Origin: Blattabacterium cuenoti | Lineage (GTDB): Bacteria > Bacteroidota > Bacteroidia > Flavobacteriales > Blattabacteriaceae | Assembly: GCF_014252435.1 (NCBI RefSeq) | Contig: NZ_CP059220.1 | Span: 496,001 to 560,000 of the forward strand | Reading direction: 5' to 3' | Length of the DNA: 64,000 bases | Shown here: positions 11,568 to 39,920 of the stretch, piece after piece | How positions within the stretch are numbered: the stretch's first letter is position 1 | Layout of the letters: every line of letters starts with the position of its first letter | Translations under genes and position numbers: made by a program | Notes under the pieces: model-generated | The model's input: only the letters and a program-made list of their open reading frames with translations | Told to the model about the DNA's origin: nothing | Databases searched by the model: none

Positions 11568-12344
11568 ATGATTGTTATTTTTCTTTTGTTAAAAATATCT
11601 TTCATTGAAATTTTGGATATTACTTTAGTAGTTTTTGTTTTTTATCAAATATATCGCATTGTACATAATACTGCTGCTTTAAATATATTTTATGGAATTA
11701 TCGCAACATTTATATTTTGGAAAATAATAGAAACATATAAAATGCGATACCTTAGTATAGTAATCAGTACTTTTTTTAAAGGAGGATTTTTAGCATTGAT
11801 CATATTATTTCAACCAGAAATAAGAAAATTTCTCCTTATAGTAGGAAGTAAAATTTTTTTCAAAAAATTTGTTTTTCCCATATTTAGAATATCTTCTATA
11901 TCTATAGAAACAGAAACAATCGATTCTATATCGAAAGCATGTGCTATTTTTTCAGGAGATAAAACAGGAGTATTAATTGTTATTCAAATTAATCAAGATT
12001 TGAAATATTTTATTCAAAATGGAGATGAAATGGATATAAAAGTAAATGTCCCTATAATGGAAAGTATATTTTACAAAAATAGTCCATTACATGATGGTGC
12101 TATAGTTATAGTAGAAAACAAAATAGTAAAAACAAGAGCAATTCTTCCCGTATCTTATAATAAAGATATTCCATCCAGATTAGGACTTCGTCATAGAGCT
12201 GCTATTGGTTTAACAGAAAAAACAGATGCAATTTGTATTGTTATTTCTGAAGAAACAGGTTATATATCATATATTAAAAATAAAAAAAGAACTATAATTG
12301 CTAATATTAATCATTTAAAAAAGATATTAGAAGAAAATTTATGA
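11568..12344 (+). CDS. dacA: Diadenylate cyclase (DacA/CdaA type, c-di-AMP synthesis)
   Basis: Makes cyclic di-AMP from two ATP. 258 residues: hydrophobic N-terminus with about three membrane helices (to about residue 85), then the DisA_N catalytic domain (about 95-240). The catalytic motifs are present as LHDGAIVIVENK (DGA) and SRLGLRHRAAIGLTE (RHR). This is the membrane-bound CdaA architecture seen beside folP in many Bacteroidota. c-di-AMP usually governs potassium and turgor balance and cell-wall homeostasis, so its survival in a reduced symbiont genome is notable. No c-di-AMP phosphodiesterase is seen in this window. Confidence 0.9.
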   Translation: MIVIFLLLKISFIEILDITLVVFVFYQIYRIVHNTAALNIFYGIIATFIFWKIIETYKMRYLSIVISTFFKGGFLALIILFQPEIRKFLLIVGSKIFFKKFVFPIFRISSISIETETIDSISKACAIFSGDKTGVLIVIQINQDLKYFIQNGDEMDIKVNVPIMESIFYKNSPLHDGAIVIVENKIVKTRAILPVSYNKDIPSRLGLRHRAAIGLTEKTDAICIVISEETGYISYIKNKKRTIIANINHLKKILEENL

Positions 12345-12400: not shown

Positions 12401-13725
12401 ATGCATATGAAAGATATAATTAAAAATATATATAAAATATATAGTACTATTTCTACTGGAATAGAAATAAATAGCAAAAAAATTATAAAAAATTCTATTT
12501 TCATAGCTTTAAAAGGAACAAATTTTGATGGAAATGATTTTGCATTAGAAGCAATTGAAAATGGAGCAATGTTATCCATTGTAGATAATAAAAAATATTT
12601 GTACTCCAAAAATAAAAAAATATTATTCGTAAGTAGTACATTAGATTTTTTACAAAAATTAGCTATTTATCATAGAAAAAAAAATCATCATATACCTATT
12701 ATAGCCATTACGGGAAGTAATGGAAAAACTACGACGAGAGAATTGATTAAAATAATTCTTTATAAAAAATATAAAAATATTCATTCAACTAAACAAAATT
12801 ATAATAATCACATAGGCGTCCCATTAACTATTTTATCCATGCCTAAAAATACAAAAATGTCAATTGTAGAGATTGGATCTAATCATGAAGGTGAAATAGA
12901 TAAAATGTGTTCTATCATTGATCCAGATTACGGTTATATTACAAATTTTGGTAAATCCCATTTAAAAGGATTTAAAAGTTTTAAAGGAATTATTCGTGGA
13001 AAATTAGAATTATATAAATTTTTAGAAAAAAAAAAAAAATTAGTATTCATAAACGGAGATGATCCTATTCAATTATTTCATAGTGAAAAAATGAAAAGAT
13101 TTATTTTTTCGATAAAAAAAAAAATATTAAATCAAATATCCAATTTATATATATTTCTAAAAAAAATGATATTCGAACTATGTTATCTATCCAAAATATT
13201 AAAATCACATCTTCTCTTATAGGAAATTACAATATATATAACCTAGCTTCATCTATTACTATCGGAATTTATTTTCAAGTTTCGATTTACCATATTCAAA
13301 AAGCAATACAAAAATATATTCCAAATAATTATCGTTCTCAATTAATAGAAATAAATAATAAAAAAATCATTTTAGATTGTTATAACGCTAATCCAACAAG
13401 TATGATGAAAGCTCTTACCTTTTTTAACAATCATATTTTTGGAAATAAAATTGTTATATTAGGAGATATGTTAGAATTAGGAGTCTTTTCAAACAAAGAA
13501 CATGAAAAAATTTTACTTTTCATCAAAAATAGTAATATAAATTTTGGATTTTTCATCGGAGAAATTTTTTTTTATACAAATATTTATTATACAAAAATGA
13601 AAAAATTTTTGAATAAAGAATCATTTTTGAATTGGATAAAAAAATATCCTATTAAAAATTCTGATTTTATTCTTATTAAAGGATCTAGGAAAATTGCATT
13701 AGAAAATATTATTCATTTAATATAA
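12401..13725 (+). CDS. murF: UDP-N-acetylmuramoyl-tripeptide--D-alanyl-D-alanine ligase MurF, split by a frameshift at an 11-A run
   Basis: MurF adds D-Ala-D-Ala to the peptidoglycan precursor. The N-terminal and ATPase part is read from 12401 with GSNGKTTTREL (P-loop), NYNNHIGVPLTIL, EIGSNHEGEID and NGDD. That frame then runs into unrelated sequence ending at 13222. In the -1 frame, IQFIYISKKNDIRT leads into NIKITSSLIGNYNIYNLASS, NNYRSQ, DCYNANPTSMMKA and ILGDMLELG, ending at 13725. The switch falls at A11, 13114-13124. Adding one A (or a -1 slip) gives one protein of about 440 residues, the normal MurF length. Both halves keep all key motifs, so the gene may be expressed through slippage, or may carry a recent mutation or a sequencing error. 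It lies between dacA and pdhA on the same strand. Confidence 0.85.
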
Positions 13726-21290: not shown

Positions 21291-22526
21291 TTTTTAAATT
21301 TTTCTTCTAAAAAAACTTCTTTTATTTTATTCTTCGATATTTTTCTTATTTCGATAAAAAATGTTCCATCAGTTCAAATTGGATATACACATTTTGGTAT
21401 ATTAGCAATATGATCAACTATAAGTAATCCTAAAGTTTCACATTTTTCAGATTTTGGAAAATTAAAGTTGTATTTATTATTGAGTTAACCTATTTTTATA
21501 CGTGAAAAAAAAATGCATTATTACTTATTGTTATATTTAATAGATACATATCATCATGTTCATATTTTTTATATCTCCAAGAAATTCTTCTAATATATTT
21601 TATACAGTGATTTAACCTGAAGTGAATCCTTATTCATTTCATACTATTACTATACTTTTTTTTTGAATTAAAATATGCATAATTTTTATGATATAAGTAG
21701 TAAAATGAACTAATTCTACTGGTATAACGATAGATTTAATTTTTTTAATTTATAAATAATGAATATAATATGATCTATATTTTTATTGTAAATCATAATT
21801 TTTGATTATCCACTTTCTGTAAACATATTTTGTATGTAATATATAGATGATGAAACGATATCACATGATATCATATCTTTCATAGAAACCATATACTCAT
21901 ATACTTTTTTTTGAGAAAATTCGAAAGCTTTATGAAACATATCCATGTTATATTCTACCAATCCTTTTTTTGGAATATGATTTTTCATTTTTTCTGATAA
22001 AAAACATACTAAATCTTCCTTATCAAAAAACTGTTTTTGATTTCTTTTTTTATATCCTAAAACTTTTAAAAAATATTTGAAATAAATAAAATAAAGTTTG
22101 TAATTGGAGATAAAATTACATATAAAATATGTACAGGAATAATAAAAAATATTAATAATCATTCATTTGAATATATTCGACCTATTACTTTAGAAATAAA
22201 GTATTCAACTATTAAAATAATAATATCTAAATAAATTGTTTCTAAAAAAAAATCGATATAGAATGATTAAATGGACCATTTGGATAAAATGAAAAAAACA
22301 ATTTATCCATAAAAAATACTATATATCATCAAATATATACTATTACCAATTAATATTGTTTTTATAAATTTGTTTGGATTTTTCATATATCTATATATAA
22401 TTTTAGAGTAAAAAGAATCTTTGTTTTTCTCTATTTTTATTTGAAATAAATTAGAGGAAACGAAATCCACTTCCATTCCAAAAAAAAAAGTAAAAATAAA
22501 TCAAGTAATAATGGATATACTATCAT
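21287..22526 (-). pseudogene. Decayed CNNM/CorC (hemolysin-type, DUF21 + CBS + CorC_HlyC) transporter gene
   Basis: Fragments of one protein follow in order down the minus strand. ATG 22526 opens a DUF21 membrane start reaching FFFGMEVDFVSSNLFQI and FIKTILIGNSIYLMIY, which then meets a stop. At about 22075-21806 come FFDKEDLVCFLSEK and KAFEFSQKKVYEYMVS (the CBS entry). At about 21670-21560 come SIVIV and NILEEFLGDIKN with stops between them, and at about 21443 ETLGLLIVDHIANIPK of the CorC_HlyC domain. The last codons end in a TGA that overlaps the ATG of the PPIase gene. Total span is 1240 bp, equal to about 413 codons, near the full length of the family (about 430), so decay is by stops and frameshifts rather than large deletion. 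Confidence 0.88.
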
Positions 22527-22554
22527 AAATTATTATATATGATATATGTATTTC

Positions 22555-37227: not shown

Positions 37228-37245
37228 AAAGGTTTTATATATATC

Positions 37246-39920
37246 GTGAAAAAAAAAATCTATCAAATAATCAAAAAACATATTGCATTATTCAAAAAAC
37301 AAAATTCTAATAATAGAAAATTAATATTTCTATCTAAGGATTTAGATATTATAGAATATATAAAGGATGAATATCATTGTTTATTTAAAAAAATCAATAC
37401 TAAATTTTTTACAATAGAAAAATTTTTAGAATTGATTTCTAAAAAGAAAAAATTGGATCAATTTCATCTTTTTTTTTATTTTATTTCGATTCTAAAAAAA
37501 GATCATTTTGATAAGAATGAATTAGTGAAGTTTATTAGACTTACTCCTAAAATATTAAATGATTTTCAATATATTGATTTTAATATGATGAATATTCATC
37601 ATGTTTTTCATTCCATTATATCTACAGAAAAAATAAAACAATGGAATTCAAATTTTTTTGATCAAAAAAAAATACTTTTTTGGAAAAAAATGAATCAATA
37701 TTATCATATTTTACAATCTAAATTATTAGAAAAAGGATTGACATATCAAGGGTTAATGTATAAAAAATCTATTGATTATTTAGATAACTTTCTATCACAT
37801 AACTTAAATGTAGAACTAATTTTTTTTTTCGAAAAAATTTAATTTTCGATAAATGGGAAAAAAAATTAGTAAAAAGAATAGATCAAAACAATCAATGTTT
37901 TATATATAAATTATGTGATAATACAAAATATTTCAAATATAATAGGAATCCTACTCATAATATTTTCAATAATAAAAAAATAGAAATTTTAAATAAATTG
38001 AGTGTTATTGGTGTTTCAAAAGAAATAGAACAAATAAAAATAGTAGAAAATATCATAAAAAAAACAATCAATAATAAAAATCCATTCAAAAAAATATTGA
38101 TAATTCCATCAGATCATTCTTTATTGATTCCTTTAATATATTCTATTAGAAATGTTTTCAATATTCAATCATCCATTCATATCCATTTTCCTTTAAAAGA
38201 TATACCTCTTCATTATACTTTTCAAGTAATATTTGAATTTTTAATACAACAAAATAAATTCAACAAAATTGAAACAAAATATGTAAAAAAAATATTTTTA
38301 GATAGATATATTCAAAATATTTTTATCAAAAACAATTTTATAATAAAAAAATTACTACATAATAATAATTCATATTTTATTTCCAAACAATTAATAGAAA
38401 AATATTTAATGAATAACTATCTTCATGTATTGTTCATAAAATCATTGAATATAAAAAAAATATTAAAAATACTAATTAGTTTTATCAGAAAAATCAAAAA
38501 CTTTTTGTATAAAGATATTACTAAACATTATATCGAATTACAGTTTTTATACAAATTAGAGTTGTTATTTTTTCGATTGAAAATATTGGATAGAAAAAAA
38601 ATAATTTCATCATTTATTGTAAATGATCTATTTCACATATACAATGATTTTGTAAAAATGGAAAGCATGGAGTATAGAAACAAAAAATCCCCAAAATTAT
38701 TTTTTACAAGTTTTACAAAAAACTTTATTGAAAAATTTGACATAACTATCATTACTTCTTTCAATGAAAATGTCATCCCTCCTAAAAAAAAAAATTATTC
38801 TTTAATTCCCTATGATATTCAAAAAAAACTAAGAATTCATGACGATTTGATGAGAGAAAAATATTACTTTTCTCATTTTATAAGAATTTATCAATCTTCG
38901 AAAAAAATATTTCTCATATTTAAAAACCAACCAGATGAAATCAATTCTGGAGAAATGAGTTCTTTTATTCACCAATTAAAAATTGGTTATAAAATATCAA
39001 TAAAAAACAAAAATTTTTCATGTTTTCCTAATAAAAAAAAAAAACCAATTTTTATTGAAAAAACAAAATATTTTATCAATCAATTGAATGATTTAAGAAT
39101 ACAAGGTATATCTCCATCTTCTATCATTTTATATAATAAAAATCCTATTCTTTTTTATTCTAAAAAAATCCTGAATCTAAAAAATAAGGAATCTAACTTA
39201 TGCCAATTAAAAATTGGAGAAATGACTCACAAAGTTTTACAACTGATTTATTCTCCTATAAAAGGAAATTACATTACTAATACTTATATTCATCATATGA
39301 AAAAAATAGTTAAGCCAACTATTAAAAAAATTTTATCCGAACAAAAACTTGAAAAAATAAAAAACAATAGACTATATTATTTTCTAATAAAAAATTATAT
39401 AGAACATTTTATCTTATGGGATGAACAAGTGATTCAAAAAGGAAATAAAATATTGATTAAAAATGTAGAACATAAAATATCTAATATTATTCATATTCAA
39501 TCAAAAAAAATTCATTTACATGGAATTATCGATCGAATTGACGAGATTAACGGAGTTAATCGTATTATTGATTATAAAATAGGACTATCTAAAAAAAAAG
39601 ATATAAATATATCTTTTCAACAAAGAAAAGATATATTTACAAATCCAATTTATTCAAATACAATGCAGTTACTCATATATGTTTATTTATGGTTTAATTC
39701 TCATATAAACAATCAAAAATCTATATCAAAAATAGAAATAATTTCTCCTATAAAATATAGAAATAATGTAATAATCAAACCTATTCCTATAAATTTTTTT
39801 TGTGAAAAAAAAACATTTATAACATATAAAGAATATAAAACAAATTTCTTTCCATTCCTTTCTAATAGAATTAACGAAATTTTAAATCCTAAAATTCCAA
39901 TTATAGAAAAAATTTACTAG
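37246..39920 (+). CDS. PD-(D/E)XK nuclease family protein (AddB-like), split by a frameshift at a 10-T run
   Basis: First frame from GTG 37246 runs 198 codons (LTPKILNDFQYIDFNM, ILFWKKMNQYYHILQSKL, LTYQGLMYKKSIDYL), matching the N-terminus of the about 900-residue flavobacterial AddB-like protein. It goes out of frame at the 10-T run 37820-37829. The -1 frame continues at once with RKNLIFDKWEKKLVKRID and is open to 39920. The C-terminal nuclease has SSIILYNKNPILFY, GEMTHKVLQLIY and the catalytic DRIDEINGVNRIIDYK (Asp plus Asp-Tyr-Lys). One extra T would give one protein of about 891 residues. Over 640 residues after the shift are undamaged, so slippage rescue or a recent event is likely. Role by family: DNA end processing in recombination repair. 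Confidence 0.72.

Follow-up and report, generated by a model that had tools for sequence, protein, structure and literature searches.

The closest described counterparts of the locus analysed in this study are found in the insect endosymbionts Buchnera and Blochmannia, where, following Tamas et al. (2008) as related in two later papers (PMC3017870, PMC5009743), frameshifts in poly(A) tracts, including those in cell-wall genes, are corrected by transcriptional slippage. The preliminary description of this stretch of DNA had invoked these cases. Rescue with 12–50% corrected transcripts, again with cell-wall genes included, has been reported for other endosymbionts (PMC5009743), and ancient frameshifts in Blochmannia were described as being kept by selection (Wernegreen et al. 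2010, cited in PMC3017870). Slippage is also known from dnaX, which in Thermus relies on transcriptional slippage at A9 and in E. coli on a -1 ribosomal frameshift (PMC1088944, PMC5009743). In many bacteria, selection against slippage is evident from runs of nine (PMC1088944). A result that counts against rescue comes from Buchnera itself, where no frame-restoring transcription error was detected by Traverse and Ochman (PMC5574713).

The gene investigated here is murF of a Blattabacterium cuenoti strain, contained in a window of 64,000 nucleotides that comprises positions 496001–560000 of a 586,140-bp genome in a single contig. As far as the Buchnera and Blochmannia cases are related in the papers cited above, it shares with them the setting of an AT-rich insect endosymbiont and an otherwise intact gene with one indel in a long run of A's, the presence of cell-wall genes among those affected and the proposal of a rescue via heterogeneous transcripts. 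It differs in its occurrence in Bacteroidota, in the repeated involvement of Mur ligase genes and in the almost uniform -1 direction of the shifts, and in being described here at the level of genomes. The resemblance to the ancient frameshifts of Blochmannia, as these are cited, concerns murD of the genus, whose shift persists across many host species with purifying selection behind the run, whereas the murF shift of the window is a single-lineage event without such history and, in murD, one lineage has compensated the shift and one carries an in-frame run. With dnaX, both genes share an A9 or A AAA AAG slip site inside a coding gene, but dnaX gives two products in a set ratio, whereas of the Mur products only the complete ligase seems to be of use, and the murF and murD sites showed no stimulatory stem-loop.

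While slippage-rescued poly(A) frameshifts are already known, our analysis probably adds a case from Bacteroidota that is recurrent in Mur ligase genes and that includes a murD shift kept across a large clade. It carries an idea known from gammaproteobacterial symbionts to this phylum. We found no report of such a case within the part of the literature covered by our search, in which two Blattabacterium genome papers are silent on mur genes and frameshifts.

Organization of the split murF gene

murF occupies positions 12401–13725 of the forward strand. Read directly from the sequence, the gene follows one frame up to a run of 11 adenines (A11, 13114–13124) and the -1 frame beyond. The upstream open reading frame (12401–13222), whose true start is possibly the second ATG at 12407, encodes 273 residues comprising the N-terminal part of MurF. 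Its portion up to the end of the run (12401–13124) contains the Pfam domain Mur_ligase and the first part of Mur_ligase_M, with the P-loop GSNGKTT and the motif NGDDP, and is followed by a frame-0 tail of about 32 codons (13125–13222) that closes with a TAA at 13220–13222, the end of the unrescued product. The -1 frame is free of stops from 13087 through A11 to 13725 and encodes the remainder of the protein, with the 3' part of the gene (13114–13725) containing the motifs GNYNIYN, DCYNANPTSM and LGDMLELG, the Pfam domain Mur_ligase_C and the stop codon.

The switch must lie downstream of 13081 and 13084, where the -1 frame has its last stops before it, and upstream of the frame-0 stop at 13220, which leaves an interval of about 136 nucleotides with the homopolymers A6 (13086), T6 (13104), A11 and A8 (13159). 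Because residues upstream of A11 (FINGDDP...FSI) agree with those of relatives in frame 0 and residues downstream of it (KSNIQFIYISKKND..MLSIQNIKITSSLIGNYN) in frame -1, we place the switch at A11, the putative slippage site. The same frame-wise alignment, in conjunction with the bracketing stops, rules out a shift at A6, T6 or A8, and equally at a longer run, A14, that is located 5' of A11 at 13026–13039 and that is in frame in this genome. With a single switch at A11 and no further stop, murF shows the pattern of one indel in an A or T run of at least about nine nucleotides, with the rest of the gene intact; it carries one lesion rather than the several lesions or the loss of conserved residues by which a pseudogene would be recognized.

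Both parts of the gene encode well-preserved segments of the ligase. In a comparison with the murF profile TIGR01143, the N-terminal half scores 207 bits at profile positions 1–218 and the C-terminal half 111 bits at positions 226–416, each below the cut-off of 288.6 bits when taken alone, whereas the joined protein reaches 325.1 bits and covers positions 1–416 of 418. Residues 20–440 of the joined protein align with solved MurF structures (best E 3e-44). The C-terminal half retains 57 of 59 near-invariant residues, the two substitutions (L to F and I to M) both being conservative, and its conservation relative to that of the N-terminal half is unremarkable, the ratio being the 16th lowest of 49 genomes. 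These results confirm the preliminary description, which had reported a single -1 shift at an 11-A run between two intact halves. Judged by its sequence, murF is not decayed, although intactness alone would not distinguish an expressed gene from a recently broken one. No other intact MurF was found in the genome, where the only other match to the MurF query is murE.

Independent shifts of murF within the genus

The comparison with related symbionts that had been proposed was carried out on a set of 49 genomes of the genus, consisting of the window genome and 48 relatives. murF is present in all 49 and forms one open frame of 433–456 codons in 45 of them. The four split genes belong to the window genome (A11), G036 (A13), G003 (A16) and G026 (A11). 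In G036 the shift is found at the site homologous to A11 of the window, and in G003 and G026 at the upstream site homologous to its in-frame A14. All four shifts are -1 and located at A11–A16, with stops on either side confining each of them to a short stretch that contains the run, and in the murF tree they constitute four separate events. From its placement in this tree, the shift at A11 in the window genome is an event of its own lineage.

We consider it rather probable that murF is a living gene rescued by slippage at A11, as we propose for murD. Replication slippage in the long A run would have caused the net loss of one A in murF. RNA polymerase would then add an extra A at the run in a fraction of the transcripts, and the corrected mRNAs would be read through to a normal-sized MurF of 441 residues, in amounts that are lower than normal but still suffice. 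This scheme would likewise apply to murD in the window genome and in about half of the genus. By analogy, we infer that whole MurF would be made in the window strain; most of the correction would probably be due to transcription and not to the ribosome.

A long-lived frameshift in murD

The murD gene of the same genome is located outside the window (G000:C1:244761-246127; L063 11758-13130) and is split by a -1 shift at A13 (L063 12213-12225), which directly precedes the sequence VLEVSSFQLDD. The gene is split at one shared run in 23 of the 49 genomes, all 23 shifts being -1, and a single -1 read-through converts each of the 23 into a stop-free protein of 451–461 residues. In a tree of murD and murF, 20 of the 23 split genes fall within one clade of 24 genomes; in its inner clade of 15 genomes, murD is split in 13, each with an uninterrupted A9, and in G044 of this inner clade the run is an in-frame A10. 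A different route was taken in G046 (L079), the remaining genome of the inner clade, where A9 is kept and the frame is regained by a 2-nucleotide deletion about 12 nucleotides downstream (KKKMFIYEMSSFQ). Since this genome compensates the shift while retaining A9, murD appears to have been in use while shifted. The split runs are never shorter than A9, compared to six of 26 intact runs that are (Fisher p=0.024, with species not being independent).

The half of murD behind the shift shows dN/dS values of 0.14–0.33 between genomes sharing the shift, compared to 0.18–0.43 between intact genomes (pS 0.06–0.30). These low values, unlike those of a dead frame, identify a sequence that, as judged from its substitutions, is under purifying selection, and therefore argue that a split Mur ligase gene yields a functional protein in the genus. 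Together, these sequence comparisons suggest that frameshifted Mur ligase genes remain functional in the genus, a view whose extension from murD to murF of the window genome would hold by analogy.

In most split genomes of the 15-genome clade, the conserved V of LEVSSFQ in murD is replaced by M (ATG), 18 nucleotides past A9, a possible internal start that is confined to this clade. Together with an ATG at 13180 in the -1 frame of murF, this codon would be compatible with halves that are translated separately and assemble as a split ligase. We regard such an arrangement as extremely improbable, as the break is located inside the middle (ATPase) domain and as murD of G005, G007, G024 and G025 contains no ATG, GTG or TTG within about 120 nucleotides of the run, so that reinitiation cannot supply that half in these four genes.

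The murD clade is the more interesting part of our findings. With split and intact genes, one compensated lineage and one in-frame run inside the split clade, murD in 49 species constitutes a well-sampled natural experiment. Tentatively, and as a possibility that we would not rate highly, the murD run may be a long-lived, selected recoding site from which MurD is dosed by slippage and which murF has joined in this genome, with the supply of peptidoglycan precursors partly set by polymerase slippage. If true, frameshifted Mur genes would be functional even where studies of genome reduction in the genus count them as lost. More generally, our results warn against counting a gene of these genomes as lost simply because it is split at a homopolymer.

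Direction of the shifts and mechanism of correction

Shifts at homopolymers are strongly biased in their direction. With a decayed corC-like gene left out and each gene counted once per lineage, the tally comprises four events in murF, at least four in murD, three in murE (-1 in G003 at A10, L130; in G020 at A11, L131; and in G008 at A11, L133), one in ftsI (-1 in G046 at A10, L132), one in an addB-like gene of the window and three from stretches of G028 and G009. As controls, murC and pnp are split in none of the 49 genomes. The shift is -1 in 16 of 17 events (p=0.0003, or 0.003 without murD), the sole +1 shift being found in G009 at a sense A15. In Buchnera, 151 of 157 insertions among transcription errors were located in homopolymers, versus 16 of 57 deletions (PMC5574713). 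With this excess of insertions at homopolymers, -1 alleles are the ones within reach of repair by transcription, as one additional A would restore their frame. The excess of -1 shifts supports rescue without proving it, since ribosomal -1 slippage or deletion-biased mutation could give the same bias.

The first of these mechanisms, in which the whole MurF would result from -1 frameshifting of the ribosome on A-rich slippery codons rather than from slippage of RNA polymerase, finds some correspondence in the sequences. Frame 0 of murF reads AAA AAA AAA and contains the slippery heptamer A AAA AAA, and murD of the blaberid type has the classical -1 heptamer A AAA AAG, which is present in many split murD genes, all of whose shifts are -1 without exception. 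A stimulatory stem-loop was not found, as the 75 nucleotides downstream of the sites fold no stronger than mononucleotide shuffles, both for murF (z 0.8) and for the set of 23 split murD genes (z -1.8 to 2.0, with no trend). The runs of split murF and murD genes measure A9 to A16, which fits polymerase slippage, and one split gene of the window has a T10 run. While ribosomal frameshifting appears quite unlikely on these grounds, our preference for transcriptional slippage draws on the literature and on the circumstantial signs provided by the run lengths, the T run and the missing structure past the sites, which lead us to favour it. The mechanism is directly testable by counting the A's in RNA reads from the fat body of the cockroach host.

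Requirement for MurF in cell-wall synthesis

The retention of the remaining pathway bears on the question of whether murF and murD were inactivated only recently, with peptidoglycan synthesis being lost and the 3' half not yet decayed. In the dcw region of the window genome, the genes for an ftsI-type penicillin-binding protein (PBP), murE, mraY, ftsW, murG, murC, ftsQ and ftsA are open, as are murB, ddl and two EPSP-synthase-family genes, which were taken as aroA and murA, so that no further break was found among the peptidoglycan genes examined. Recent inactivation would account for two broken ligase genes in one genome on a long branch, and indels in homopolymers are known to initiate gene loss (PMC3017870). 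It would also be in line with changes in the wider clade of the window genome, where the search for an ftsI-type PBP was negative in G010, G011, G015, G023 and G039 and gave only a weak match in G030. Wall building may be changing in this wider clade, and selection on the pathway may be weaker there. Yet murF is open in all six of these genomes and murD is intact in four of the five without a detected PBP, and this retention of the ligases favours a continued need for them. Moreover, murD illustrates that such shifts may persist long under selection. Recent inactivation hence appears unlikely as an explanation of the split murF.

The expectation in the preliminary description that rescue would prevail over loss accordingly stands as the better reading of the locus, mainly by virtue of murD with its shift in 23 of 49 genomes, the signs of purifying selection and the compensation in G046. 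In murF itself, the shift is an event of its own lineage, and a recent mutation would look alike. The confinement of this shift to one lineage at its site counts against rescue. So does the negative search for the PBP in five genomes of the wider clade, by which the pathway may be under relaxed selection.

Homopolymer runs and other broken genes in the window

The coding regions of the window contain 44 A or T runs of at least ten nucleotides, where 48.8 would be expected from the same proteins and codons; runs of 11 or more number 17, compared to 26.5 +/- 1.9 expected, with runs of 8–10 not being depleted. The longest A/T runs are partly avoided in window genes. In a census of broken frames against one relative, which covered 69 reference ORFs with a match, the only broken genes were murF, a gene for an addB-like nuclease and a decayed corC-like gene; outside the window, the comparison extended to the dcw region and to 200 kb of relatives.

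This census also bears on an error of assembly or sequencing, in which the real A run of murF would be of in-frame length. Although homopolymers are error-prone, single-site frame breaks are found at only two of the 44 runs of at least ten, A11 in murF and T10 at 37820–37829. Furthermore, the A9 shift in murD recurs uniformly in 13 related genomes, and G046 is in frame only with A9. We thus view such an error as very unlikely.

The T10 run splits the gene of an addB-like PD-(D/E)XK nuclease (37228–39917, forward strand) by a -1 shift. The corC/hlyC-like gene (21302–22536, reverse strand) contains several frame changes and stops and is a decayed pseudogene. The apparent extension of rnc and uppS over several frames is an artefact of reference ORFs that were extended beyond their true starts. 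Further frame breaks at homopolymers were observed in G028 (L065:14939, L065:13378) and G009 (L072:7130, L069:16968), including aroQ at A13. Directly 5' of murF, the window contains a gene for a CdaA-type diadenylate cyclase with a DAC domain (11568–12344, forward strand), and with this gene present, the synthesis of c-di-AMP is apparently retained in the 586-kb genome of the symbiont.
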